From: Candidatus Blautia faecipullorum
GTDB taxonomy: Bacteria > Bacillota > Clostridia > Lachnospirales > Lachnospiraceae
DNA length: 64,000 bases
Assembly (NCBI GenBank): GCA_019115125.1
Contig: DXEG01000001.1
Span: 23,420-87,419, forward strand
Direction: 5' to 3'
A program made the position numbers and the translations under genes. This document shows, piece after piece, positions 3,448-27,716 of the stretch. Each line of letters opens with the position of its first letter. The first letter of the stretch is position 1. The notes beneath the pieces were generated by a model. It had not been told where the DNA came from and did no database searches. It saw only the letters and a program-made list of their open reading frames with translations.

Positions 3448-6207
3448 TCAAAATACCGCCTCAACCTCAAATTCTCCATTTCCGATTTCTTTGATGCTTC
3501 CATCCGGCAGTCTGATCTCAGCAGACGTATTCGCCGGTATTTTGCCAAAGATGCGTATTTTGTCTATATCTTTCTCCCATCTCAGCTCAATGGCGCCGTG
3601 GGGACAGTGATAGCTGCCCTCCGCCCATTCAAATGGACAGCTGTACTCCGGCGTGATGAGGATCTTGTCATAGCCTGTCCCGGCATTGTTGAGACCGAGT
3701 ACTCTGCGGTAGAGGAAATCACCTACACAGCCGAAGGCATAATGGTTAAAGGAGCAGTTTGCCAGTTCACCGTCGGGGCGCACAGCGTCCCAGTTCTCCC
3801 AGACTGTTGTAGCGCCGTTCTTTATTTCATACAGCCATGAGGGACATTCCTCCTGAAGAAGCACTTTCCACGCGGTACCCTGATATCCGTACTGGCACAG
3901 AATATCCAAAAGATGAGGTGTTGCCATGAACCCGGTATCCAGACGGAAGCCGTTTCCTTCGACCAGCTCATTCAGCCGTTTTGCCAGCAGCGGTTCTTTC
4001 TCAAGAGACACCATATGGTGCTTCAATGCCAAAATGTAGTTTCCCTGCATTTCCTGCTCCAGCCTGCCGTCGTCGGAGACATATTCTTCCTCAAATGCCT
4101 GCCGGACTCTCTTTGCGTAGGTACGGTATTTCTTCGCGTTTTCCTGATATCCAAGCAGCTCGGAGATCTCTGCGTACATATCGGCATTTGCAGCGAGGAG
4201 ACTGCTTCCCACGCAGTGCATGGTAAGAAATGCCGATGCAGGGCCGTCTGTAAATCCCTGTTCATTGACGACACTGGGGATAATCCAGTCGCCGAAGTGG
4301 AATCCGGTGTTGATCAGGTAATGCATATTTTCAAGCCGGCGTTCATCTGTAGGAAGTTCCGGTATGGAACCCATGGTATTTGCGGGAGACGGAAGTTCGT
4401 CGGCTGCCTGTACCATTGCCTCCATCCATTTGCTCATGGCTTCATAGTTCGCCGCCAGAACATCCTTGTCTCCGCGCAGTTTGTAGAGCTGTAAAGGAAG
4501 CGTCATGATGACGTCGCCCCAGCCAAGGGAGCCGCCGGAATCCTGCATGATATAGCTGCGGATCTGCGGGACAGTCCCCAGAATATGTCCGTCTTCTCTC
4601 TGTTCCGTACGGATACTTTTTAGCCAGTCCTCATAGAAAGCGGTCATGTCCTGATTAAAAAGGGCGGTTGCGCCGTAGACTACCACATCGCCTGTCCAGC
4701 CTGCCTTCTCACGGGTAGGGCAGTCGGTGGGGATGGTGATATTATTGGAGCGCTGGCTCCAGTAAATATTGCTCTGGAGCTGGTTGAATTGCGCGTCGGA
4801 GCAGCGGAAGCTTCCGGTCACCTCATTGTCCGTGCTGACAGCAAGGGCGGTAAAGTCTTCTTTTTTCCAGTCTGTGCCGCCGGTCACGCGGACATAACGG
4901 AAGCCGTGGTATGTAAAGTGAGGCTCAAATACCTCAAAGTCGTTCCCGCCGCAGATATAAGTATCTTTTTGTTCGATATTCGTACCCGAGAATATGTAGA
5001 AATAATTGCCGTCCTTGTCGAGCTGTTCTCCGTGCTCAAAGGTGATCTTCGTCCCTTTTGGCTCGCGAATCTGCACGCGGATGACTCCGGCAAGATTCTG
5101 TCCGAAATCAACGATCGTATCACCGTTGGGCGCAGTCAGGATCTCCAGAGCAGGTACTTCTTTGAAGACCCGGGCAAGAGGACTGATCTGCGCTTCCAGT
5201 GTATTGTCCGGAGCGTCTTTTACCTGCACAGGAAGCCATCTGCTGTCATCGTAAGAAGAAAGAGAAGGATCGCCGTCTGCCATCTGTGCATCGTACACTT
5301 CTCCAAGGAAGAGATCGGCTGTGCGTACTGGACCGTCAAAGGAATATTTCCAGTTTCCGTCTGTGGCAATGATCTGTTTCTGACCGTCCGGCGCCGTCAG
5401 CTCAAGCTGGAGGAGCAGCCCCGGTACTTCGCCGTACTCGCAGCCACGGCCTACCGCGATCTTGCCCTTATACCAGCCGTCCGCGACTGTGGCGGAGATG
5501 GCGTTCGCGCTGCCGCAGATCAGGTCGTTTACATTATATACCTGATATTTCAGACGCTTATCATAAGTTGTAAATCCCGGGTTGAGCAGGGCGTCTGTGA
5601 CCGGTCTGCCGTTGATCTTTACTTCATACAGGCCGTGCGCCGTCACATACAGGCGCGCTTTGGATACGGGGACTTCTGAGATGAATGTGCGTCTCATCTG
5701 CACAGCGGGATCGTAAGGCTCCAGCGGGAGCGAATGGAGAATGTCTCCGTCCGAGCCCACCTCTGACGACTCGCCCCGCATCATGGCTTCCAGGGATTCC
5801 GCCCACTGCTTCTTTGCGGTGATCAGCGGATTGACCTCAAGCTGAGGCAGCGGATCAGGCTCGATCCAATGGGCGCGCCAGTCAGTGAGATCAAAGAAAG
5901 CCGTCTCGAAAGCGTATGTATCGCTCTTAATCTCTGCCCCGGTGTCCGTCCGGACAGATACGCTATATGTATAGGAAGAAGCGGACTTAAGTTCTTTTCC
6001 CTCGTATGGGATTCCGGTGGAGTCAGAGCTGTTTCGGATGCCGCTGTCCCACATCAGACTGCTGTCTTTATCCTTGACGATGATCTGATATGCAGTCTGA
6101 AATACATTATTATCTTTGGTTGCGATCTCCCAGGAAAAGCGCGGATGTTTACAGTCCAGAGAGATCGGGTGATGTGAAAATTCGCAGGTTACATTTTGAA
6201 TGACCAT
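3448..6207 (-). CDS. Alpha-L-rhamnosidase, GH78
   Basis: 919 aa, full GH78 architecture: N-terminal beta-sandwich (FSHHPISLDCKHPRFSWE), Bac_rhamnosid_N region (~150-330), the (alpha/alpha)6 catalytic barrel (~430-800) and a C-terminal beta domain. The motif DCPTREKAGWTGD places the likely general acid at Glu500; TTVWENWD gives the likely base Glu804. No signal peptide, so cytoplasmic hydrolysis of imported rhamnosides is expected. It is a paralogue of the GH78 at 7756 but only partly alike. The start has GAGGAGG upstream (minus strand). It is transcribed away from the AraC regulator and carries a copy of the shared paired operator at 6279-6308, about 72-101 bases before its start. Confidence 0.92.
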   Translation of the reverse strand: MVIQNVTCEFSHHPISLDCKHPRFSWEIATKDNNVFQTAYQIIVKDKDSSLMWDSGIRNSSDSTGIPYEGKELKSASSYTYSVSVRTDTGAEIKSDTYAFETAFFDLTDWRAHWIEPDPLPQLEVNPLITAKKQWAESLEAMMRGESSEVGSDGDILHSLPLEPYDPAVQMRRTFISEVPVSKARLYVTAHGLYEVKINGRPVTDALLNPGFTTYDKRLKYQVYNVNDLICGSANAISATVADGWYKGKIAVGRGCEYGEVPGLLLQLELTAPDGQKQIIATDGNWKYSFDGPVRTADLFLGEVYDAQMADGDPSLSSYDDSRWLPVQVKDAPDNTLEAQISPLARVFKEVPALEILTAPNGDTIVDFGQNLAGVIRVQIREPKGTKITFEHGEQLDKDGNYFYIFSGTNIEQKDTYICGGNDFEVFEPHFTYHGFRYVRVTGGTDWKKEDFTALAVSTDNEVTGSFRCSDAQFNQLQSNIYWSQRSNNITIPTDCPTREKAGWTGDVVVYGATALFNQDMTAFYEDWLKSIRTEQREDGHILGTVPQIRSYIMQDSGGSLGWGDVIMTLPLQLYKLRGDKDVLAANYEAMSKWMEAMVQAADELPSPANTMGSIPELPTDERRLENMHYLINTGFHFGDWIIPSVVNEQGFTDGPASAFLTMHCVGSSLLAANADMYAEISELLGYQENAKKYRTYAKRVRQAFEEEYVSDDGRLEQEMQGNYILALKHHMVSLEKEPLLAKRLNELVEGNGFRLDTGFMATPHLLDILCQYGYQGTAWKVLLQEECPSWLYEIKNGATTVWENWDAVRPDGELANCSFNHYAFGCVGDFLYRRVLGLNNAGTGYDKILITPEYSCPFEWAEGSYHCPHGAIELRWEKDIDKIRIFGKIPANTSAEIRLPDGSIKEIGNGEFEVEAVF

Positions 6208-16566: not shown

Positions 16567-16973
16567 AAAACTCCTCCTCTATTATTATTTATACTTTTAT
16601 CCCCTTTGACAGTTCCTTTGTACACTCTACCCAGTATATAGATAAAATGTTATGGTTCTGTGAAATCCATATAAAAAATATGGGAATAATTTTATGATGC
16701 CAAAGGCAAAGCGGTTTATCCTGTGTGGATCCGCTTATAAAAGGGCAAATACATTGTCAACAAATATAAATACTTTTAAATAAAAAAATGACCTATCTCT
16801 CGATAGGCCAAAATAAAAACGCTCCAAACACTCATTTTTTCATTTTACAAGCAAAATTTCAATTAACTAATTTACTTTTTTATGCTTTTGTTTTTAATGC
16901 TTTTTGTAGCTAATTGATTGAAGTTTCTATATCATTTCGTTTTAACCTTAATTAAGACTTACAAACTTGGAAT
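16567..16973. other. AT-rich gap, probable left flank of the integrated element
   Basis: No gene. It holds a short palindrome (CCATAT / ATATGG near 16670-16690), a loose AAGCGG/CCGCTT hairpin, and the minus-strand terminator at 16782-16807. Base composition falls abruptly from the host level after dapF. The left end of the mobile element must be here, but I found no direct repeat matching the right flank. Confidence 0.5.
16782..16807 (-). terminator. Minus-strand terminator
   Basis: On the minus strand CCTATC-GAGA-GATAGG followed by TCATTTTTTTA. Fits the end of the leftward transcript from the small membrane protein. Confidence 0.7.
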
Positions 16974-17417
16974 TTACGCTTCAATATTAAATGTATTCTT
17001 GTCTTTTTTATAAAGCAATGTCATAACGAACGCAACAATTATCAATATATGTAATACTATATGATATACATCAGGAACATATCTTCCGTCTACATTTATC
17101 AGTTGAATACAGTCTGCAAAGTAGGCAATCTTCTTGTCCATATCTCCCATAAATCCGCTACCAAATATAGTATACCATTCGTGGCTTAAAAACTGGATAA
17201 TAAACCACATTCCCAACCACGCCAAATGTATATTTTTTCCAATTTTTCCTGCGATTAAACATAAAATAAATGTAACAGTTGGAACAAGCATGAATATCCA
17301 TTCTTCCTTAAATGCACTTGTTACTAAGTATTTATCTCCAATTTTCAACCCTGTCATAGAAAGAAAATACCACAATAACAGAATGATATTTCCGATTATT
17401 ATATAAGATTTTTTCAT
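16974..17417 (-). CDS. Four-helix membrane protein, unknown function
   Basis: 147 aa, not recognised. Four predicted membrane helices: ~6-24 (IIIGNIILLLWYFLSMTGL), ~40-58 (WIFMLVPTVTFILCLIAG), ~66-80 and ~115-137, with a Lys/Asp-rich C-terminal tail. GAGGTG lies 11 bases before the ATG. Strongly AT-rich, unlike the host genes around. It lies between the relaxase and the left edge of the element and runs the same way, so it is likely cargo. No toxin, immunity or resistance motif is visible. Confidence 0.6.
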   Translation of the reverse strand: MKKSYIIIGNIILLLWYFLSMTGLKIGDKYLVTSAFKEEWIFMLVPTVTFILCLIAGKIGKNIHLAWLGMWFIIQFLSHEWYTIFGSGFMGDMDKKIAYFADCIQLINVDGRYVPDVYHIVLHILIIVAFVMTLLYKKDKNTFNIEA

Positions 17418-17479
17418 AAAAATATATCACCTCGTCAACTTCCAATTTGTCTTTCCAACACATTATAACAAATAGGGCG

Positions 17480-17524
17480 GGAAAGTTCAATCGGACATCC
17501 AACGGATGGCCGGTGGAACTTTCC
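17480..17524. repeat. Inverted repeat just after the relaxase gene
   Basis: GGAAAGTTC / GAACTTTCC arms (17480-17488, 17516-17524) enclosing a smaller CCGG-type stem, directly downstream of the relaxase stop. No T-run on either strand. It could be a transcription end or a replication-related structure. Confidence 0.5.
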
Positions 17525-17528
17525 TCTG

Positions 17529-18464
17529 CTATCGTCTTATTTCTGGATTGTTTCGCTCTGGCTCTATCTCTTTTTTAATCTCTCTGTCTGGATTGTTTTT
17601 TTCTGGCTCTGGATATTCTCCATAACCTTTACTTGCATAAAAGCATTGCTTTTCATACTGCATGAAAGTAATTCCCTGTTCTCTGCAATATTCTTCAATC
17701 TTCAAATTGTGTTGATGTGATTGTTCAGCCTTTTCATATGCTTTATCAAGCTGTTTTTGTATATCCTTTAACTTCTCATTCTTAGCTAACAGTCGCTGTC
17801 TTTCCTGCTCAATTTCTTTCTTAAAGTCTTGATTTTCCTTATACTCTCGTACAGACATTTTCTTTCTATGTTCTTTCTCTGGGTCTGTACGTTCTAAGTT
17901 TTTATCAGGGCATCGTTCTTTCATATGCTCATAAAATCTGTCTTGAAAGCCCTTAAAATAATCTTTTCCCTTTTGGTGCTGAGTTACATTAAATGATTTG
18001 CTCCCATCTTCTTTTTCATGTATCGGCAACATGGAAGTATGACAATGAGGTAAGCCCTTTTCATCAAAATGTATTCTACTATCCACTACATGAAAAGTTG
18101 GATATTCTTCCTTTAAGAAATCTAGTCCAGCCTTAAAATATTCTATTTGTTCTTCCCTTGTCATGCTTGCTATCAGGTCATGGCTAGCCCCCATTACAAA
18201 ACAAGACAGCACTTTTGTAGCGTTCCTATCGCTTGTTGTATCTATATTGAATCTTCCGCCAATATGTTCCTGCTCTTTGTATGCTGTCACATATGCCCTA
18301 AATGTCTTATATTCGTCCGCTTTATTATCATGTTCCAATATTACATTATGCGAAGATTTGGCAGGGTCATAATTTACATGGCTTAAATCCTTGACGCACA
18401 AAGTGCGTTCCTGTTCTCTCTCCACACTGTTTGCGTCCTTGCAGTTATAATTTTCACACGTCAT
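17529..18464 (-). CDS. MobV-type relaxase (Pre/Mob plasmid recombination protein)
   Basis: 311 aa. The metal-binding triad region VDSRIHFDEKGLPHCHTSML matches the HxDE...PHxH motif of MobV relaxases, and LSHVNYDP matches the conserved NYD region. The C-terminal third is a charged coiled coil (~205-265). It would nick oriT to start transfer. Odd: the N-terminus (NSVEREQERT) has no HNxR motif, where the nucleophilic His of MobM (pMV158) sits, and the ATG lacks a close Shine-Dalgarno (AAGGAGG is ~26 bases up, with a stop between). It may be N-terminally altered or inactive. An oriT-like palindrome lies just upstream. Confidence 0.8.
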   Translation of the reverse strand: MTCENYNCKDANSVEREQERTLCVKDLSHVNYDPAKSSHNVILEHDNKADEYKTFRAYVTAYKEQEHIGGRFNIDTTSDRNATKVLSCFVMGASHDLIASMTREEQIEYFKAGLDFLKEEYPTFHVVDSRIHFDEKGLPHCHTSMLPIHEKEDGSKSFNVTQHQKGKDYFKGFQDRFYEHMKERCPDKNLERTDPEKEHRKKMSVREYKENQDFKKEIEQERQRLLAKNEKLKDIQKQLDKAYEKAEQSHQHNLKIEEYCREQGITFMQYEKQCFYASKGYGEYPEPEKNNPDREIKKEIEPERNNPEIRR

Positions 18465-18500
18465 TATTGCTATATTGATTAGCTATCAGCCTCCTTATAA

Positions 18501-18539
18501 ATTATCGTATAGGGCATATAGCACGCCCTACATGATAAT
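18501..18539. other. Candidate oriT palindrome
   Basis: Nested inverted repeat: ATTATC (18501-18506) / GATAAT (18534-18539) outside TAGGGC (18510-18515) / GCCCTA (18525-18530), directly followed by the CATG seen next to MobV nick-site palindromes. It lies 37 bases before the relaxase start, the usual place for a MobV oriT. Assignment is by position and shape only. Confidence 0.45.
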
Positions 18540-18582
18540 TATATAATTCCAGCCCCACCGACCGCAACAGTTCGATAGAGAA

Positions 18583-18623
18583 CCCACTCTGTCGATAAAT
18601 CGACGTGGGCAGGGGAAATCCCC
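18583..18623. repeat. Paired hairpins in the element's non-coding core
   Basis: CCCAC-TCT-GTCGA-TAAA-TCGAC-GTGGG (18583-18608) followed at once by GGGG-AAAT-CCCC (18612-18623). Such stacked hairpins are common in rolling-circle origins; function unproven. Confidence 0.45.
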
Positions 18624-18652
18624 TTGACCCCTTTTCAAGTTCACAGATCGTT

Positions 18653-18748
18653 CAGACTTTGATCTATTGCTTCAGCAGATTTTCTATTATACAATCAATG
18701 TATAAGGTAACAGGAAGAAACCTGCTGGTGCGAATCCAGTCAAGTCTG
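18653..18748 (+). ncRNA. Candidate structured RNA or origin upstream of the replication-type gene
   Basis: A 7-bp outer stem CAGACTT (18653) / AAGTCTG (18742) closes a multibranch holding three clear hairpins: TTATACA-ATCAA-TGTATAA, CAGG-AAGAAA-CCTG and CTGG-TGCGAAT-CCAG. The last loop and the order AGGAA...GGTGCGAATCC...CTGTAA recall the core of cobalamin riboswitches, but the CCCCGC segment is missing. An alternative pairing AGGAAGAA / TTCTTCCT (18712 / 18752) would break the outer stem. A hairpin AAGGGG...CCCCTT lies at 18787-18808. Identity is open. Confidence 0.35.
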
Positions 18749-19019
18749 TAATTCTTCCTTTCAGTATTGCGTTTCAAACTTGTCTAAAAGGGGTTATTAG
18801 TAGCCCCTTAATATTTATCAATGTATGTTCCTCTGGACTCTGCAAAGACTCATCAAGGACTCTTGTATTGTAGCGTCTGGTAAGATATTTTGATGTTTTT
18901 TGCTTATATGTCTTGTGAAATGATATGTTGATTTATATTGTAGAGTGCTTTATTGTTCTGTACTTTGATGTACTCTCCTAATACTAAAATATATATGATA
19001 CTGAAAGGAAAATCGAAAT

Positions 19020-19664
19020 ATGAATAAGAAAGAAAAGAAAACCGCTATAGAAAAAAGAGAAAAACTGGATAACTCTGTACTTGCTGAAATCAACCAAAAA
19101 TATCCTAAAGTCAGCGTAAACGGAGTTGCATACGACTTAGGGCTAACCTACTTTACAATAGAAACGGACTATTTATCATCTGTCAATGTGCGTAAGCTAA
19201 TCAAAGCACAGGGCGCAGAAGTAATCGCAGTTATTTGTTTCTTCCGACAGGAGATGTGCCAACCTTATGGCTGGTATTGTAAGGTTGATAAGGATAATCT
19301 TGAAAACCTTATTGAACGATGTGCATTTACTCTCAAAATGAATGAGGAAGAAGTCCAAAACCACTACCAAGCCTTAATTGATAACCAAATCTTTTTCTTG
19401 CTAAATGATGAAAAAGGCTCATACCTAGCTGACACACAACAGCTTTTCAACTTTGAGATTTTAAACAACTCCCGTATTGTGGACAGAGAACGAAAAGCGA
19501 AAGCGAGAAAAAAGGCAAAAGAACAGGAGCAAGAACAGGAACAAGAAGAAATTGAAGATACCACTCCCGAAACACCTGTCAAAGCACCTTTGGAAGAAAT
19601 ACCCAAAATATCTGCTGACGAATTTCTTCTTTTCAATGAAGATGAAAATGAGATATTCTTTTAA
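19020..19664 (+). CDS. Replication-type protein with a DUF4373-like N-terminal domain
   Basis: 214 aa. Residues ~42-135 (YFTIETDYLSSVNVRKLIKA ... LIERCAFTLKMNEEEVQNHY) read like the winged-helix DUF4373/Lin1244 domain found at the start of phage and plasmid replication initiators. The C-terminal part is Glu/Gln/Lys-rich with a run of QE repeats (~165-180) and ends in an acidic tail. AAAGGA lies 9 bases before ATG. It lies opposite the relaxase, past a ~550-base structured gap, so it may drive copying of the excised element. The domain call is a judgement by eye. Confidence 0.5.
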   Translation: MNKKEKKTAIEKREKLDNSVLAEINQKYPKVSVNGVAYDLGLTYFTIETDYLSSVNVRKLIKAQGAEVIAVICFFRQEMCQPYGWYCKVDKDNLENLIERCAFTLKMNEEEVQNHYQALIDNQIFFLLNDEKGSYLADTQQLFNFEILNNSRIVDRERKAKARKKAKEQEQEQEQEEIEDTTPETPVKAPLEEIPKISADEFLLFNEDENEIFF

Positions 19665-19671
19665 TGCTAAG

Positions 19672-19699
19672 CCACTGGCAAGTACGCTAGTGGTTTTTT
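19672..19699 (+). terminator. Terminator of the replication-type gene
   Basis: CCACTGGC-AAGTAC-GCTAGTGG stem with one G-T pair, then six T, 8 bases after the stop. Confidence 0.9.
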
Positions 19700-19710
19700 A
19701 GATTTATTAA

Positions 19711-19755
19711 GAAAAAGAGTTCTTTCGGAATCACAGCGTGATTCCGGAAGAGCTC
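19711..19755 (-). terminator. Terminator of the serine recombinase gene
   Basis: On the minus strand an 18-bp stem (GAGCTCTTCCGGAATCAC with two wobble pairs) followed by TTTTTCTT, just after the recombinase stop. Confidence 0.88.
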
Positions 19756-19762
19756 TTGCGGA

Positions 19763-21295
19763 TTAAATTTTCCAAACAATTTCAATTTCTCCATTTTCAA
19801 ATAGCGAAACTTTTTCTATAAGTTCATTTGCTATCTTCTTTTTTTCTTCGTCTGATAACTCTATAAATAGAATATCTTCATAATCTGCCAATTGTTCTGT
19901 GAAGAAATCTCCTTTTAATCGTAATTGGTTAATATGCGCTTGCTTTTCTTTGATTTTTTCAGCGACTTCTTTTATATCTATTTGTAGTGCTAATTCGATA
20001 AGTCTTTGAATATCTTGTTCTTCTTTTTCAATCTCAATTTTGATGTTAGACCATTCATGTTTTTTGTTCTGATGTATTCTCTCGATGTCTGATATATGTT
20101 CTTGTATTTTATTAGCTACCTTTGATTTCAACTGTTCAAATGTAATATTTTTAACGCTAAAAGTCGCATCACATTCGTGCATAACTGATTTACCAAAGCA
20201 AGAAAGATATTTATGTTCGTGACTATAAATTCTAATACCATAGCCACATTTCCCACATTTTACAAGACCAGCTAGCCATTCCATTTTAGAAGGTTTATTA
20301 CCTCTTGCCATTTGCTTATTTTTTGCAAGTCTATTCTGAATTTTTATATATTCCTTGCTTGTGATAAATCCTTGAATATTCGTCAAATATACAACACAAT
20401 CTTTGTAATAATCTGCCGTATATTTCTTGCCTGTCTTATTACAAATCAAATGTGCAGTATGTTGACCGTTCCAATCTTCAATGTTATTTAAAATCGTACA
20501 ATTAAGTGATTGAAAATAATAGTATAATGTCTGGTCTGCAATAACATAAATAGGATTTCGTAAAACATTCAAAACTAAAGTTGTTCTAAAGTTTTTACCT
20601 TTACGAGCCTTATAACCTAATTCTTCTAAATCACGAACAATTCTAACAAGAGAAATATTGTCATTGTTATAATACTTGTCGTACATAATTTTGACTGCTT
20701 CAATCTCTGTTGAATTGTATTCTAACATAGGCGGTTTACTGGCTTTCCTTACATTACACCCGAACGGAGCAGGTCCACCAGGCCACCGACCATCTCTTTC
20801 TATCCTTGAATAGTAATTATCAGTTATACGCATTTGTATAGTTTCTCTTTCAAGTTGAGCAAATACAACAATAATCCCAAGCATAGCCCTGCCTGTTGGG
20901 GTATCTGTATTAAACTGGTCATTTACACTAAAAAAAGCACAATCATTATTTTTAAGAATTTCGTATGTATCGTAAAAATCAACCGTTGAGCGTGAAAATC
21001 TATCAAGTTTATAAACAATGATTTTATAAATCTTACCGTTTTTCACATCTTTAAGCATTTGTTGAAATGCAGGGCGGTCTGTATTTTTTCCAGAAAATCC
21101 TTTATCTTCATAAGTTTTAAATAATTCATTATCATTTAGAAATTTTTTGCATTCGTTGATTTGTGTTTCAATGCTTATACTGTCTTTTTTATCAACCGAT
21201 TGACGAGCATAAATAGCAACACGCCGAGCAGGTTCAACGCCCCAATAGTCTTTTTCTTCAGTATGTTTCTGTTTGTAAAAATCTAATCTACCCAT
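19763..21295 (-). CDS. Large serine recombinase (integrase of the mobile element)
   Basis: 510 aa. Resolvase catalytic domain first (~22-170): RRVAIYARQSVDKK gives nucleophile Ser33, and YKLDRFSRSTVDFYDT the helix with catalytic Arg residues. Then the recombinase domain (~185-290, GGPAPFGCN...), a zinc ribbon (CGKCGYGI...C...C, ~345-375) and a long coiled coil (~395-450). This layout is that of Tn4451/TndX-type integrases. The ATG at 21295 has GAGGTG 7 bases up; an in-frame GTG three codons earlier has no RBS. Its 5' end faces hydF, so the right attachment site should lie between 21300 and 21436. Confidence 0.95.
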   Translation of the reverse strand: MGRLDFYKQKHTEEKDYWGVEPARRVAIYARQSVDKKDSISIETQINECKKFLNDNELFKTYEDKGFSGKNTDRPAFQQMLKDVKNGKIYKIIVYKLDRFSRSTVDFYDTYEILKNNDCAFFSVNDQFNTDTPTGRAMLGIIVVFAQLERETIQMRITDNYYSRIERDGRWPGGPAPFGCNVRKASKPPMLEYNSTEIEAVKIMYDKYYNNDNISLVRIVRDLEELGYKARKGKNFRTTLVLNVLRNPIYVIADQTLYYYFQSLNCTILNNIEDWNGQHTAHLICNKTGKKYTADYYKDCVVYLTNIQGFITSKEYIKIQNRLAKNKQMARGNKPSKMEWLAGLVKCGKCGYGIRIYSHEHKYLSCFGKSVMHECDATFSVKNITFEQLKSKVANKIQEHISDIERIHQNKKHEWSNIKIEIEKEEQDIQRLIELALQIDIKEVAEKIKEKQAHINQLRLKGDFFTEQLADYEDILFIELSDEEKKKIANELIEKVSLFENGEIEIVWKI

Positions 21296-21361
21296 TTTTT
21301 GCACCTCGTTAATTGTATTCTAGCACATATAGGCTATATTTACAATTATACATAAGGTTAA

Positions 21362-21416
21362 AGCCTCTGGATATCGGCATCATTTTTGTAAAAGAAATTA
21401 TCTGGAATCAGAGGCT
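21362..21416. repeat. Long-loop inverted repeat at the element/hydF border
   Basis: AGCCTCTG (21362-21369) / CAGAGGCT (21409-21416) with a 39-base loop, just downstream of the hydF stop on its strand. It may be a hydF terminator arm split by, or adjacent to, the integration point. Confidence 0.35.
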
Positions 21417-21435
21417 GACGCGCGGCTTTTCCGGC

Positions 21436-22698
21436 CTACGGAAGGAGCCGGAGGATATCCGGGAAAGGTTCCAGGCTTCTTTTGAGGATTCCGGTGATCC
21501 GGGCGATGAGTATGCCGTAATTTGTAATGGGGACATTCTGGTCCCGGCAGCAGGCAATCCGGTATTTCATTTCTCTTTCATTGAGCATACAGCCTCCGCA
21601 GTGTACCACCAGCCTGTATCCGCTTACATCTTCCGGAAATTCCGTGCCGGAGACAAAAACAAATTCAGGAGATTTTCCGGTGTACTGACGGATCCATCCC
21701 GGGATTTTTACAGTGCCGATGTCGTCGCACTGGCGGTGGTGGGTACAGCCCTCCGCAATGAGGATCTTATCTCCGTCCTGAAGCTGGTCAAGGGCAGCGG
21801 CGCCCTGGACGGCGGTCTGAAGATCTCCTTTATATCTGGCGAACAGAATGGAAAAAGAAGTCAGAGGTATATCCCCGGGAACATCCTGAGAAACCCGGGC
21901 GAAGGCCTGACTGTCCGTGACTACCAGACGTGGACGGACGCCTTTATCCAGAAGGTTCTCTAAAGAGTCCTTTAGTTCGGTATCTCGAACCACCACGGAA
22001 AGTCCGCCGTGCTCCAGAATGTCCCGGATCGTCTGCTGCTGCGGCAGGATCAGCCGCCCTTTTGGAGCTGCTTTGTCAATGGGGACCACAAGGACGATCA
22101 GATCCAGAGGGGACATCAGATCCCCGATCAGCGGATATTTATGCGTATCCTCCGGCTTCAGAGACGCGATCAGCTCCTTTAGTTCGTAAATGTTTGTTTT
22201 CTGTGAGGCGCTGACCAGAATAGAGTGAGCGTCGGAGAATGGAGCGTCCTCTCTGCCGGAGAGCGCGCTGGGCACCGCAGAGGCTGCGTCTGTATCGTCT
22301 GAAAGCAGATCGCACTTGTTATAAACCACCACATAGGGGATTCCCTTTTCCTGGAAACGCCGGATCAGGGCATCTTCGGGAACGCCCTTTCCTACAGTGC
22401 TGTCCACTACAAGCACCGCGATATCTGTTTTGTTCAGTACCTGGTAACTTTTTTTTACTCTGAGAGAGCCAAGCTCTCCTTCATCATCAATACCCGGAGT
22501 ATCAATGACCATTACCGGTCCCAGCGGAAGAAGCTCCATTGTTTTATATACAGGGTCGGTGGTAGTGCCTTTCACGTCAGAGACAATGGCAAGCTCCTGA
22601 CCAGTCACGGCGTTGATGATACTGGATTTTCCCGCGTTGCGCCTTCCAAAAAAGCTGATATGTACCCGTTCAGAGGCAGGTGTCTGATTCATTCCCAT
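21436..22698 (-). CDS. hydF: [FeFe]-hydrogenase maturation GTPase HydF
   Basis: 420 aa. GTPase domain first (P-loop GRRNAGKSS at ~18, TPGID at ~66, NKCD at ~131), then dimerisation domain, then an iron-sulfur domain with CTHH near 305 and HCGGC near 355, the CxHx(n)HCxxC cluster ligands of HydF. It is the scaffold on which the H-cluster 2Fe precursor is carried to the hydrogenase. RBS GGAGGA 7 bases before ATG. HydE, HydG and a hydrogenase are not in the window, so the gene stands alone. It ends ~140 bases from the serine recombinase start. Confidence 0.95.
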   Translation of the reverse strand: MGMNQTPASERVHISFFGRRNAGKSSIINAVTGQELAIVSDVKGTTTDPVYKTMELLPLGPVMVIDTPGIDDEGELGSLRVKKSYQVLNKTDIAVLVVDSTVGKGVPEDALIRRFQEKGIPYVVVYNKCDLLSDDTDAASAVPSALSGREDAPFSDAHSILVSASQKTNIYELKELIASLKPEDTHKYPLIGDLMSPLDLIVLVVPIDKAAPKGRLILPQQQTIRDILEHGGLSVVVRDTELKDSLENLLDKGVRPRLVVTDSQAFARVSQDVPGDIPLTSFSILFARYKGDLQTAVQGAAALDQLQDGDKILIAEGCTHHRQCDDIGTVKIPGWIRQYTGKSPEFVFVSGTEFPEDVSGYRLVVHCGGCMLNEREMKYRIACCRDQNVPITNYGILIARITGILKRSLEPFPDILRLLP

Positions 22699-22900
22699 AA
22701 GTATTTCCTCCTGACCGTTGAAGATTTTAGAAAAATGATTCTGTACAGAAAAGCGTTTGATTCCATGCTGACGTTTTTCTGTACGTCTGTTTCAGATATT
22801 TCTGAGTCTGAGTATAGCAAAAACGGCGCTTAAATTCAATGAACTAACGCGGCAGCGCGGAAGAAAAAAAGTTACTGTTCAGATCCAGCACCGTAGTCGG

Positions 22901-22931
22901 CTTAAAATGGGCTGGATTCTGTTACAGTTCA
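22901..22931. repeat. Dispersed repeat A, copy 1
   Basis: CTTAAAATGGGCTGGATT followed by CTGTTACAGTTCA. The first 18 bases recur exactly, inverted, at 33692-33709, and the TTACAGTTCA part also follows there. Confidence 0.75.
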
Positions 22932-22987
22932 GCCCGCGCCATTCGTAAAACCGCACTGCGTGCTTACTGTGGCTGACGCCACTGTTT

Positions 22988-23050
22988 TATATTATAGGAA
23001 AGCACTCTAAATTGTTCTAAACTGTAATATACATACTTTCCTATAATATA
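22988..23050. repeat. MITE-like palindrome, copy 1
   Basis: Perfect 15-bp terminal inverted repeats (TATATTATAGGAAAG / CTTTCCTATAATATA) around 33 bases. A near-identical copy lies at 31121-31183, and a related shorter one at 38207-38262. Confidence 0.85.
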
Positions 23051-23071
23051 AATGCTCCGCTGTGGATGCGA

Positions 23072-23142
23072 CCAGATGCATGTGGAATTATGACTGCCTG
23101 CGGCAGTCTGCATCTGGCGCGCAAAGTGTGCTCGCACACTTT
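23072..23142. repeat. Hairpin repeat B, copy 1
   Basis: CCAGATGCA / TGCATCTGG (23072-23080, 23109-23117) enclosing GACTGCC-TGC-GGCAGTC, then AAAGTGTG-CTCG-CACACTTT (23123-23142). Copies 2 and 3 are at 31205-31275 and 33995-34106. Confidence 0.85.
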
Positions 23143-23270
23143 GTTCCTTATAAACGGGCGCTCAGCTCATACAGATGTCCGTTCACAAAAACATGCAGGC
23201 ATGTTTTATGCTTCCCGACCACTGTATGGCTGAACTGATACAAATAAGTTTATATTATTCACGCAGGCTA

Positions 23271-23298
23271 TTGCAATTTGTAAAAAACATGGTACAAT
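23271..23298 (+). promoter_or_regulatory. Promoter of the amino-acid ABC transporter
   Basis: TTGCAA, 16-base spacer, TACAAT. About 150 bases before the binding-protein gene, leaving a long leader. Confidence 0.6.
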
Positions 23299-23447
23299 TA
23301 GAACCATAATTTCAAGGGAGAGTTCTGTATTTGTGGGAAATATTTCAAACACAGGCGCTTCCGGACAACTGTGTTTCACAGTGAGCTTTATACATTGAAA
23401 TGTATAAATATGCCTGCTTTCCATAGCGGGCCAAAAGGAGGAAAAGA

Positions 23448-24236
23448 TTGAAAATGAAAAACATGAAGAAATTTACAGCATTAGCATTAAGCGCGGCTAT
23501 GACAGCTTCCATGGCGGTATCCGTATCCGCGGCGGTAGAATCCAAGGACGATCTTCCGGGAAAGACCATCGGCGTTCAGCTTGGAACTACCGGAGATCTG
23601 GAGGCTTCCGAGTATGAGGCGGAGGGCGCTACCGTAGAGCGCTACAGCAAGGGAAGCGAAGCCGTTCAGGCGCTGAAGGCAGGACAGGTGGACTGCGTGA
23701 TTATCGACTCCCAGCCTGCTCAGAAGTTTGTGGAAGCCAACGATGATCTGAAGATCCTCGACGATCCTTTTGTAGACGAGCAGTACGCGATCTGCCTGGC
23801 AAAGGACAATGAGGAGCTTCTGGAGGAGATCAACGGCGCTCTCAATGAGCTCAAAGAGGACGGCACCATCGACAGCATCATGGATAATTACATCGGAGAG
23901 GATGTCGGCAAGACTCCCTACGAGTCTCCTGAGGATGTGGACCGCTCCAAGGGCGAGCTGGTAATGGCGACCAATGCGGAATTCGAGCCCTATGAGTATC
24001 ATGAAGGCGACGAGATCGTGGGAATCGACGCGGATATCGCTCAGGCGATCTGCGATAAGCTTGGCTACGAGCTGAAGATCGAGGATATGGAGTTTGACGC
24101 GATCCTTCCCGCTGTTCAGTCCGGCAAGGCGGATTTCGGCGCTGCAGGAATGACGGTGACAGAGGATCGTCAGGCAAGCGTAAACTTTACCGATACCTAC
24201 GCAAACGCGAGCCAGGTAATCATTGTGAAGAAGTAA
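23448..24236 (+). CDS. Amino-acid ABC transporter binding protein, circularly permuted
   Basis: 262 aa (TTG start 7 bases after AAAGGAGG; an ATG two codons on is the alternative). Signal peptide 1-29 ends SVSAA with no lipobox Cys. Residues 33-150 (SKDDLPGKTIGVQLGTTGDL ... LKEDGTIDSIMDNYIG) are what is normally the second lobe of a family 3 binding protein; residues 169-262 (GELVMATNAEFEPYEYHEGD ... MTVTEDRQASVNFTDTY, ASQVIIVKK) are normally the first. The linker 151-168 joins the old C- and N-termini. Ligand residues (Arg of TEDR, GTTGD, IIDS) are kept. It should capture a polar amino acid for the permease and ATPase that follow. Confidence 0.9.
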   Translation: MKMKNMKKFTALALSAAMTASMAVSVSAAVESKDDLPGKTIGVQLGTTGDLEASEYEAEGATVERYSKGSEAVQALKAGQVDCVIIDSQPAQKFVEANDDLKILDDPFVDEQYAICLAKDNEELLEEINGALNELKEDGTIDSIMDNYIGEDVGKTPYESPEDVDRSKGELVMATNAEFEPYEYHEGDEIVGIDADIAQAICDKLGYELKIEDMEFDAILPAVQSGKADFGAAGMTVTEDRQASVNFTDTYANASQVIIVKK

Positions 24237-24281
24237 CTATCGGGATCCTATTTCCGGGAGGAGAACAACCGGAACACATAC

Positions 24282-24312
24282 AGAGCTGTTGACGATCGCC
24301 AACAGCTCTTTT
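24282..24312 (+). terminator. Attenuating hairpin between binding protein and permease
   Basis: AGAGCTGTTG / CAACAGCTCT with a TTTT tail. A leaky terminator here would keep binding-protein mRNA in excess over permease, a common arrangement. Confidence 0.75.
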
Positions 24313-24337
24313 GCTGAGGAAAGCAGGGAGAAACCAA

Positions 24338-25036
24338 ATGATATTGGCAGATATTAAACAGGATTTTTATTTGAATTTTATTAAGGAAGACCGCTATATG
24401 TGGCTGGTGGACGGATTAAAAACCACCCTCATCATCACATTATTCGCGGTGATCGTTGGGATCGTCCTGGGATTTCTTGTGGCGATCATCCGTTCTTCCC
24501 ATGATAAGTCCGGACGCTTTAAGATTTTGAACGCCGTTTGCCGCGTTTATCTTACGGTGATCCGCGGTACGCCTACTATGATCCAGCTTCTGATCATGAA
24601 TTTTGTTATCTTCGGATCAGTGAGCATGAATAAAATTGTCGTAGGAGGCCTGGCGTTCGGAATCAATTCCGGCGCCTATGTGGCTGAGATCGTCCGCTCC
24701 GGGATCATGTCCATCGACCAGGGACAGACGGAGGCGGGCCGCAGCCTGGGGCTGAATTTTACCCAGACCATGCGCCTGATCATTATGCCGCAGGCGTTCA
24801 AAAATGTTCTTCCGGCGCTGGTAAACGAGTTTATCGTGCTGATCAAGGAGACGTCTATTATCGGATATATCGGCATGATGGATCTTACAAAGGGAGCGAT
24901 GCTTATCCAGAGCCGTACATACAACGCTTTCTGGCCCCTTATGGCCGCGGCGGCGATCTATCTGGCGCTGGTAATGTTCCTGACCTTTGTTATGAATAAG
25001 CTGGAGAGGAGGCTGAGAACCAATGAGCGTAAATAA
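24338..25036 (+). CDS. Polar amino-acid ABC transporter permease
   Basis: 232 aa, PAAT/HisMQ family. Membrane helices ~24-46 ([20 protein letters not shown]), ~60-110 and ~195-220. The EAA loop [25 protein letters not shown] contacts the ATPase, and [11 protein letters not shown] is also family-typical. Only one permease gene is present, so it would work as a homodimer. CAGGGAG 7 bases before the ATG at 24338 decides the start. Its end overlaps the ATPase gene by 14 bases. Confidence 0.95.
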
Positions 25037-25769
25037 GGACAACGTTCTGATAGAAGTACAGGGACTTCAGAAGGCTTTTGGAAGCAATCAGGTTCTTGAC
25101 GGGATTACCACAGATATCTGCCAGGGCGAGGTTGTGGTCGTCATCGGTCCTTCCGGCTCCGGAAAATCAACATTCCTTCGTTCTCTGAACCTTCTGGAGG
25201 TTCCCACGGGAGGAAGGATATTGTTCGAGGGGACGGATATCACGGATCCAAAGGTGGATATCAACCGCCACCGCCAGAAGATCGGCATGGTTTTCCAGCA
25301 GTTTAATCTTTTTCCCCATAAGACGGTGAAGGAGAATATTATGCTCGCGCCGGTGACACTGAAGCTTATGACTAAGGAAGAAGCCTCCAGACGCGCGGAT
25401 GAGCTGCTGGAGAGAGTCGGACTGCCGGAGAAGGCGGATACCTATCCGGATATGCTTTCCGGCGGACAGAAGCAGCGTATTGCCATTGCGAGAGCCCTGG
25501 CGATGAATCCCGACGTGATGCTCTTCGACGAGCCTACCTCGGCTCTTGACCCGGAAATGGTGGGGGAAGTCCTGGAGCTGATGAAGGAGCTTGCGCAGTC
25601 AGGAATGACGATGGTTGTGGTAACTCATGAGATGGGATTTGCCCGAGAGGTGGGAACAAGAGTCCTCTTTATTGACGACGGAAAGATCCAGGAGGAGAAT
25701 ACTCCCGAGGAATTCTTTACCAATCCAAAGAACCAGCGTCTGAAAGATTTTCTTTCCAAGGTGTTATAA
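25023..25769 (+). CDS. Polar amino-acid ABC transporter ATP-binding protein (GlnQ type)
   Basis: 248 aa. Walker [10 protein letters not shown] (~41), Q-loop FQQFNLFPH, signature LSGGQKQR (~145), Walker [15 protein letters not shown] and H-loop THEM are all intact. [16 protein letters not shown] is typical of the glutamine/arginine/histidine importers. Start overlaps the permease 3' end, so they are translationally coupled. Last gene of the three-gene unit. Confidence 0.96.
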
Positions 25770-26071: not shown

Positions 26072-26527
26072 TTACTGCTTCTCTGTCTGAAGGCGTCCTT
26101 CCAGCTCAAGCTTTTCCGCGTTGATGGCCTTCAGTTCCTTGTAGCAGTATTTGATGATCTCTTTGCGGGTGATGATGCCGATGAAAAAGCCCTGGTCATC
26201 TATGACCGGAACGTAATTCTGATTGATGGCCCGGTCCAGGAGGTCTTCCATGTCAGCGTCCGCGTGAACGGGCTTATAGGTGGCTCTCCGGGGGATAGCC
26301 ATAATGGAAATGTCCTCCATGTCCTTCACATCTATGATATTCATCCGTTTCAGCCCCCAGAGGAGATCGCCCTCGGAAATCGTGCCTGTGTAGCGGCCGT
26401 CCACGCTGAGGAGGGGAATACAGGAGAACTTCCGGTGTTCCATTTTCTCAATGGTCTGGCGCAGAGTGTCGTCTTCAAATATATAAGCTACTTCACTTTT
26501 GGGTGTCAAAAAAAACAAAATATTCAC
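26072..26527 (-). CDS. CBS-domain pair protein
   Basis: 151 aa. Two CBS motifs (~14-60: TLRQTIEKMEHRKFSCIPLL and GTISEGDLL; ~84-135: DMEDLLDRAINQNYVPVIDD and GIITRKEII) form one Bateman module likely to bind an adenine nucleotide. No enzyme or channel domain is attached. The start is GTG with AGAGGT about 8 bases upstream. Alone on its strand with its own terminator. What it controls is unknown. Confidence 0.88.
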   Translation of the reverse strand: MNILFFLTPKSEVAYIFEDDTLRQTIEKMEHRKFSCIPLLSVDGRYTGTISEGDLLWGLKRMNIIDVKDMEDISIMAIPRRATYKPVHADADMEDLLDRAINQNYVPVIDDQGFFIGIITRKEIIKYCYKELKAINAEKLELEGRLQTEKQ

Positions 26528-26708: not shown

Positions 26709-27716
26709 TTACAGCAGTTTTACTCCTTTTTCTTCCGCCTGACGCAGCACCTCCTCAGGCCACAGGGAAGCGTGTACCTCACCGATATGAGCCTTGCGCA
26801 GGAAGAACATACAGATGCGGGATTGACCGATACCGCCTCCTATAGTGTAGGGAAGCTCCCGGTTCAGGACAGCCTTCTGGAACGGAAGCTCCCGGCGTTC
26901 GTCGCAGCCTGCTTCCCGAAGCTGGATATCCAGAGCGTCCTCATCCACGCGGATGCCCATGGAGGAAAGCTCCAGAGCAATGTCGAGAACGGGATAATAA
27001 ACAAGGATATCGCCGTTCAGCTCCCAGTCGTCGTAGTCCGGCGCGCGTCCGTCGTGGCGCTCCCCGTTGCTCAGGGTTTTGCCTACCTGCATAAGGAAGA
27101 CAGCGCCCTTTTCTTTTACGATCTTGTATTCTCTCTCCTTGGGAGTGCAGTCCGGATACATATCAACCAGTTCCTGAGTGGAAACAAAAGCGATCTCTCT
27201 TGGAAGAATTTCTTCTATATAATCGTACTGAACGGCCATATATTTTTCGGTCTTGCGAAGAACGCTGTAAATGGTCCGCACGGTGCTGACCAGAGTAGAC
27301 ATGTTCCGTTCTTCCTTGGAGATGATCTTTTCCCAGTCCCACTGATCCACATAAACAGAATGGATATTGTCGGTATCTTCGTCTCTGCGGATGGCGATCA
27401 TGTCGGTATACAGACCTTCGCCCTGGGCAAAGCCGTATTTTTCCAGCGCGTAGCGTTTCCACTTGGCAAGGGAGTGTACGATCTCCGCGTTTTCATTCAG
27501 TCCTTTGATATCGAAGCTGACCGGACGTTCCACGCCGTTCAGATTATCGTTGAGCCCTGAAGAAGGGGATACGAAGATGGGAGCGGACACACGCAGAAGA
27601 TTCAGCTTCTGCGCCAGGGTCTGCTGAAAAAAGTCCTTGACTGTTTTGATGGCTACCTGGGTATCATGAAGGTTCAGGTCAGAACGATATCCGGCAGGAA
27701 TTTTAAACTGTTCCAT
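26709..27716 (-). CDS. asnA: Aspartate-ammonia ligase (asparagine synthetase A)
   Basis: 335 aa, the normal length for AsnA. Makes asparagine from aspartate, ammonia and ATP; fold related to class II aminoacyl-tRNA synthetases. Typical segments are seen: VSAPIFVSPSSGLNDNLNGV near 44, DQWDWEKII near 123 and TIGGGIGQSRICMFFL near 297. GAGGAGGA precedes the ATG. Single gene; no T-box is visible in its 200-base leader. Confidence 0.97.
   Translation of the reverse strand: MEQFKIPAGYRSDLNLHDTQVAIKTVKDFFQQTLAQKLNLLRVSAPIFVSPSSGLNDNLNGVERPVSFDIKGLNENAEIVHSLAKWKRYALEKYGFAQGEGLYTDMIAIRRDEDTDNIHSVYVDQWDWEKIISKEERNMSTLVSTVRTIYSVLRKTEKYMAVQYDYIEEILPREIAFVSTQELVDMYPDCTPKEREYKIVKEKGAVFLMQVGKTLSNGERHDGRAPDYDDWELNGDILVYYPVLDIALELSSMGIRVDEDALDIQLREAGCDERRELPFQKAVLNRELPYTIGGGIGQSRICMFFLRKAHIGEVHASLWPEEVLRQAEEKGVKLL

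Follow-up and report, generated by a model that had tools for sequence, protein, structure and literature searches.

The question raised by this locus is whether an open reading frame (ORF) in the 64,000-nucleotide stretch of Candidatus Blautia faecipullorum DNA analysed here (the window) encodes an amino-acid-binding protein whose parts naturally stand in a rotated order. The ORF at 23448..24236 (+) encodes 262 amino acids, with the start and stop given in the original prediction. Its candidate start codons are TTG 23448 and ATG 23454, and a ribosome-binding site, AGGAGG, was read in the sequence at 23436..23441 (+). In type II binding proteins, both chain ends together build lobe 1. The canonical protein is written here as A-B-C, where A is the N-terminal part of lobe 1, B is the first part of lobe 2, and C comprises the last strand of lobe 2, the hinge-2 strand and the C-terminal helices of lobe 1. 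GlnH-like proteins start with segment A, whereas the ORF, profiles, sequence searches and AlphaFold2 give the window protein as a circularly permuted family-3 protein of order B-C-A, with the chain broken at hinge 1. A signal peptide (23448..23531, +), with probable cleavage after SVSA (residue 28) and without a lipobox cysteine by sequence reading and motif scan, is followed by segment B (residues 34-100; 23547..23747, +), which contains GTTGD and IID (Asp87), and by segment C (residues 101-151; 23748..23900, +). A linker connecting the old C- and N-termini (residues 152-167; 23901..23948, +) then leads into segment A (residues 168-262; 23949..24233, +), which carries GMTVTEDR (Arg241) and has the hinge-1 strand last.

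Sequence comparison recovered the two parts in swapped order. In a phmmer search of PDB sequences, residues 9-104 of AncQR (4zv1) aligned with query 168-262 and residues 108-233 with query 29-151 (E 1.4e-47), and TmArgBP (6svf) gave an identical swap. The Pfam SBP_bac_3 profile (PF00497) matched two separate stretches with a score of 125.6 bits (curated cut-off 26.4), its positions 1-92 falling at query 171-262, while the canonical relative L079, used as control, gave a single in-order stretch. Positions 114-250 of NCBIfam TIGR01096 lay at query 21-149; among the NCBIfam equivalogs and subfamilies (TIGR01096, GlnH, ArtJ and others) none exceeded its curated cut-off, the best being TIGR01096 with 148.6 bits versus 256.35. 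The canonical family-3 order, i.e. lobe 1, lobe 2 and a C-terminal return to lobe 1, is therefore rotated here, and the protein has the features of a natural circular permutant: two parts homologous to one canonical protein, swapped, with the old ends joined and, by prediction, a compact fold. The original prediction had placed lobe 2 first and lobe 1 last, with a new 18-residue linker (151-168). The swap and the linker are real, but lobe 2 is followed first by the C-terminal helices of lobe 1, then by the linker and last by the N-terminal part of lobe 1, and the profile boundaries make the linker 16 residues long. Its proposals that the break lies at the hinge between the lobes and that the site residues are kept were both upheld. 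Both residues of the putative amino-acid site are present, the Arg of TEDR (Arg241) being conserved in 179/182 B-C-A, 54/54 A-B-C and 43/43 C-A-B units and the lobe 2 Asp (Asp87) in 182/182, 54/54 and 43/43, respectively. As in the GlnBP and LAO structures, these two residues would hold the amino acid's alpha groups.

With an alignment of 76 relatives (77 sequences), drawn from the best 80 loci of relatives, AlphaFold2 returned one compact model (mean pLDDT 95.5, pTM 0.90) that closes as one two-lobed fold, the outcome that the original prediction had anticipated. The confidence of this model is due to the alignment, since the single-sequence prediction was poor (pLDDT 49.2) and was not used. 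The linker region is confident and ordered. Two ten-residue strands lie at the expected hinge places (model residues 84-93 and 227-236; adding 25 gives ORF numbering), the second forming the C-terminus. The top PDB match in Foldseek was 6h30, the SBD1-SBD2 tandem of GlnPQ (rmsd 19 A), of which residues 94-324 match query 22-256 in one linear stretch across the SBD1-SBD2 junction. The 50 Foldseek matches listed were of mixed kinds, with TM-scores by query length of at most 0.51, and none of them had the B-C-A topology in a single domain. Low TM-scores are expected for a rotated protein, because a sequential aligner is unable to superpose rotated lobes.

Downstream of the binding-protein gene lie the genes of a permease (BPD_transp_1; 24311..25036, +, possible start ATG 24338) and an ATPase (ABC_tran; 25023..25769, +), as in importer operons. 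The closest named relative, L117 of Candidatus Blautia intestinipullorum, is 96% identical over the mature protein, with a DNA identity of 84.7% over window 23242-25769. No second copy was found in the window's genome (67 contigs), where other family-3 matches are 33-41% identical, nor any second-copy remnant within the 64-kb window. Window 16694-23242, which contains a resolvase-family recombinase (19763-21304) adjoining hydF (21436-22698), is not matched by blastn in L117, which is syntenic elsewhere, the interval being 6.5 kb here versus 1.4 kb there. On the other side, genes for the aspartate-ammonia ligase AsnA (26709-27716, -) and a CBS-domain protein (26072-26527, -) adjoin the importer, and matching DNA is also found beside the importer in L117. 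Such neighbours possibly point to a substrate resembling aspartate or asparagine.

The original prediction treated the gene as one odd protein, but it belongs to a widespread family. A B-C-A-order match spanning both lobes with E 1e-63 or better was found in at least 81 of 397 family genomes, a lower bound as it was read from matches listed down to about 1e-37. Fetched loci covered 72 of these 81 genomes, and all 72 were B-C-A or B-C-A fused to a permease. When matches were counted whatever their form down to a threshold of 1e-40, they occurred in 93/291 class genomes (by profile), 26/295 order genomes and 4/398 phylum genomes; the 30 loci kept from class genomes, the window's own included, comprised 16 B-C-A, 1 B-C-A-permease and 13 C-A-B. 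Among the candidate stretches listed, 589/591 encode a relative in one order or another. The best 80 loci held 65 B-C-A and 11 B-C-A-permease ORFs (76 single, in open frames), 4 open B-C-A arrays and one distant canonical tandem adjoining a B-C-A gene. Frames of about 500 amino acids, considered as tandem binding proteins, were rejected as such, since they scan as B-C-A fused to a permease. Relatives occur in Blautia, Roseburia, Ruminococcus, Kineothrix, Eisenbergiella, Anaeromassilibacillus and other genera, and L154, a complete-chromosome record, has the B-C-A order. The 39 permuted proteins of set A1 share 34-79% identity with the window protein. Counting each distinct ORF of the fetched loci once gave 131 B-C-A, 44 B-C-A-permease, 50 A-B-C and 45 C-A-B, plus arrays and fragments, a tally that is no census because the loci were picked by likeness to the queries. 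In genome G112, two B-C-A genes are adjacent (L054:3424-4221 and 4369-5184, the same place as L011), one of them being much longer-branched.

Matches covering only query ~100-261 in frames of ~290 residues represent a second rotation, C-A-B, laid out as signal, C, linker, A, hinge, B and stop, with the break inside lobe 2 ahead of its last strand (L112:1219-2052; L197-L210; L217-L241; L293-L300; L302-L306; L317; operons with permease and ATPase). Permease and ATPase genes lay downstream of 15/15 of the first C-A-B genes found. Searched with a C-A-B query, 25/250 family genomes have one (the query's own included), 24 of them with at least 48% identity and the remaining one with 41%, and 25/25 loci scan as C-A-B. 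As canonical, B-C-A and C-A-B proteins were all found, all three cyclic orders exist among the relatives of this gut bacterium's protein in other gut bacteria. Among distinct genes of the fetched loci, a permease then an ATPase follow 49/49 A-B-C, 115/128 B-C-A and 38/43 C-A-B genes, and an ATPase gene comes after 43/44 B-C-A-permease fusions; neither partner was present within 400 bases of 7/128 B-C-A and 4/43 C-A-B genes.

The three orders tended not to share genomes. Among the matches listed for the 397 family genomes, 81 genomes had B-C-A, 39 a close canonical protein and 14 C-A-B, with no genome shared, against 7.96 (B-C-A/canonical) and 2.86 (B-C-A/C-A-B) expected under independence. The hypergeometric chance of zero overlap with B-C-A, being based on matches listed and weakened by genome kinship and by a limit of six scored candidates, is 8e-5 for canonical and 0.039 for C-A-B; the absence of overlap between canonical and C-A-B is not significant (0.23). 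An exception is G168, which has a divergent C-A-B gene (L240) and an A-B-C gene (L316). This distribution suggests that the rotations replace each other across genomes.

Several relatives carry repeated units in a single frame. Canonical units occur in (A-B-C)x3-permease (L034:2413-5331) and, distantly related, in (A-B-C)x2-permease (L195). Permuted ones are found in (B-C-A)x2-permease (L167:4179-6404; L196:1685-4006; L314) and (B-C-A)x3-permease (L190:688-3729; L194:1333-4434; L307, with one C below threshold), while L308:1263-4715 (-) encodes (B-C-A)x2-permease-ATPase with divergent units, a single 1151-aa frame thus covering the entire importer. Between C and A, the linker is 17 residues long at the median in B-C-A (range 14-29), 15 in C-A-B and 13 in L034. 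Other architectures were also seen. L310:1510-3654 (+) has a Pkinase domain (Pfam, 119 bits) and, after it, a divergent family-3 domain scanning as C-A-B, in which B and C are weak (18 and 17 bits); judged from its domains, it is a possible amino-acid-sensing kinase. In L309:2686-4542 (-), one 619-aa frame joins a divergent B-C-A unit to a type I binding domain (Peripla_BP_4, 44 bits).

In a FastTree phylogeny of 253 units, B-C-A formed one main clade and several outliers, and 27 C-A-B rows formed one clade, with L112, L197 and L198 among the canonical rows. The permease fusions were nested within unfused B-C-A rows, so fusion to the permease probably came later than the B-C-A order. Tree tests were made on rows hand-picked and thinned from 279 units to 83 and later 68. 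With the binding protein alone, no test rejected a single clade: p-AU was 0.258 for the full B-C-A set (44/83 rows), 0.408 once the L109/L286/L288/L291 group was taken out of it, 0.225 for the full C-A-B set (14/83 rows) and 0.178 when the large L199-L304 group was removed from C-A-B. When the permease was joined on, one clade for all B-C-A was rejected with p 0.017 (29/68 rows), a value to be read as suggestive because the rows were hand-picked, several tests were made, the groups were named partly after viewing the trees, and some long or odd rows were omitted (L002-L004, L092, L110, L111, L116, the L195 canonical pair, L211, L240, L301 and the first units of L190 and L194). One clade was not rejected for B-C-A without the outlying L109/L286-L291 group (p 0.531) or for all C-A-B (p 0.108). 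In the permease tree this outlying group joins canonical L266-L275 (support 91). Two origins of B-C-A are thereby suggested.

As in-frame tandem arrays fused to permeases exist, with canonical as well as permuted units, duplication followed by loss of the outer parts is a likely route to B-C-A, and hinge-to-hinge excision from an array would yield this order. The linear match across the GlnPQ junction and a 16-residue linker of tandem-linker length also support a tandem origin. The tandem duplication with loss of outer halves that the original prediction proposed is thus plausible and fits the arrays of the relatives, among which its direct precursor was not found: array L034 groups with canonical L074, away from B-C-A, and is an example of an array, not a direct precursor. 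Fusion of two separately encoded half-proteins, or an intragenic cut-and-paste, would reach an identical end product without tandem duplication, and no tandem sister of the B-C-A clade was found. However, free half-lobe genes of the family were not seen in the fetched loci, broken frames aside, while arrays do exist and have linkers of the same length; we consider such a fusion or cut-and-paste unlikely, though a serious competitor to the array.

Could the halves instead pair between chains, as a lobe-swapped dimer or a string of binding domains? Tandem arrays could likewise pair in this way, as the inner A-B-C of a (B-C-A)n array has the canonical order (in L308, SBP_bac_3 finds such a stretch at 196-410) and the A-to-B join within arrays is 8-25 residues long. 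Against this, the single-chain monomer is modelled confidently and its linker is predicted to be ordered, which makes inter-chain pairing improbable. An assembly rearrangement, conceivable in a genome of so many contigs, or a decaying pseudogene was rejected and has a negligible probability, as the relatives share the order, the open frames and the site residues. The same order in so many other genomes excludes chance and misassembly, and it answers the rearrangement that the original prediction had named as its possible undoing.

Taken together, these features make it very probable that the window protein serves a polar-amino-acid ABC importer as its extracellular substrate-binding component and is circularly permuted at its first hinge, with a tandem array as its likely source. 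The protein would be exported from the cell and fold into the usual two-lobed flytrap, with an amino acid held in the cleft, its alpha-carboxylate by Arg241 and its alpha-amino group by Asp87. The ligand-bound lobes would then close and the amino acid would be passed to the permease. With the chain broken at hinge 1, the lobes would be covalently joined by hinge 2 only, and the hinge-1 strand would be kept as a free C-terminus. We give about even chances to a broader picture, in which this kind of Clostridia importer has its binding protein in all three rotations, replacing one another, with multiple origins, passing through tandem arrays cut in a new phase, and with rotated domains reused as parts of permease fusions, of a single-chain importer and of a kinase receptor.

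Few natural permutants have been described among binding proteins, and explanations of how a permutation is fixed while function is preserved usually rest on individual examples. One transporter family with three rotations, arrays and permease fusions allows direct comparison of how such proteins arise, how they fold and what each hinge contributes, and the series is a natural experiment in re-cutting a protein that apparently still works. Designers of amino-acid sensors can find permuted scaffolds in it that already exist. Routine domain annotation masks such permutants, two out-of-order matches being read as a single SBP_bac_3. In the PMC full-text literature searched, which covers few subscription papers and no preprints, no permuted family-3 protein and no case of several rotations was found; the permuted protein in PMC9732360 is GFP. 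The sole natural permuted binding protein found in the literature searched was TpMglB-2, of another class.

The window protein resembles GlnH, ArtJ, TmArgBP (6svf) and AncQR (4zv1) in the full-length homology of its two parts, its site residues, its signal peptide and its operon with permease and ATPase. It differs from them in that the chain begins at lobe 2 and finishes at the hinge-1 strand, with the old termini linked. GlnPQ SBD1-SBD2 (6h30) is alike in that the stretch from the SBD1 hinge to the SBD2 hinge has the layout of the window protein, with a linker of 14 residues (PMC8025302) versus 16 here. It is unlike in having two complete canonical domains, so that its linker is flanked by lobes from two different domains. 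Another natural circular permutant among binding proteins, with an ABC importer of its own, is TpMglB-2 (Tp0684) of Treponema pallidum, which by its authors' data still binds ligand and changes shape (PMC4990184). The authors class it there as 'type Ic', i.e. of the type I sugar-binding class (cluster B fold) with a break inside the N lobe and an extra crossover, and give 13% identity for the poorly matching moved part (PMC4990184). The window protein, in contrast, is of the type II amino-acid class by profile, is broken at the hinge, shows clear homology of both parts and has more than one rotation in its family. The same authors suggest that permutation may suit membrane anchoring (PMC4990184). 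In our set, a loose lipobox motif is present in 113/127 B-C-A, 36/44 B-C-A-permease, 42/43 C-A-B and 46/49 A-B-C proteins. The window protein does not have it, and neither do its Blautia relatives L117, L118, L006 and L094. Lacking a lipobox, the window protein may be secreted or retained by an uncleaved signal, and this loss fits poorly with membrane anchoring as a general reason for permutation.
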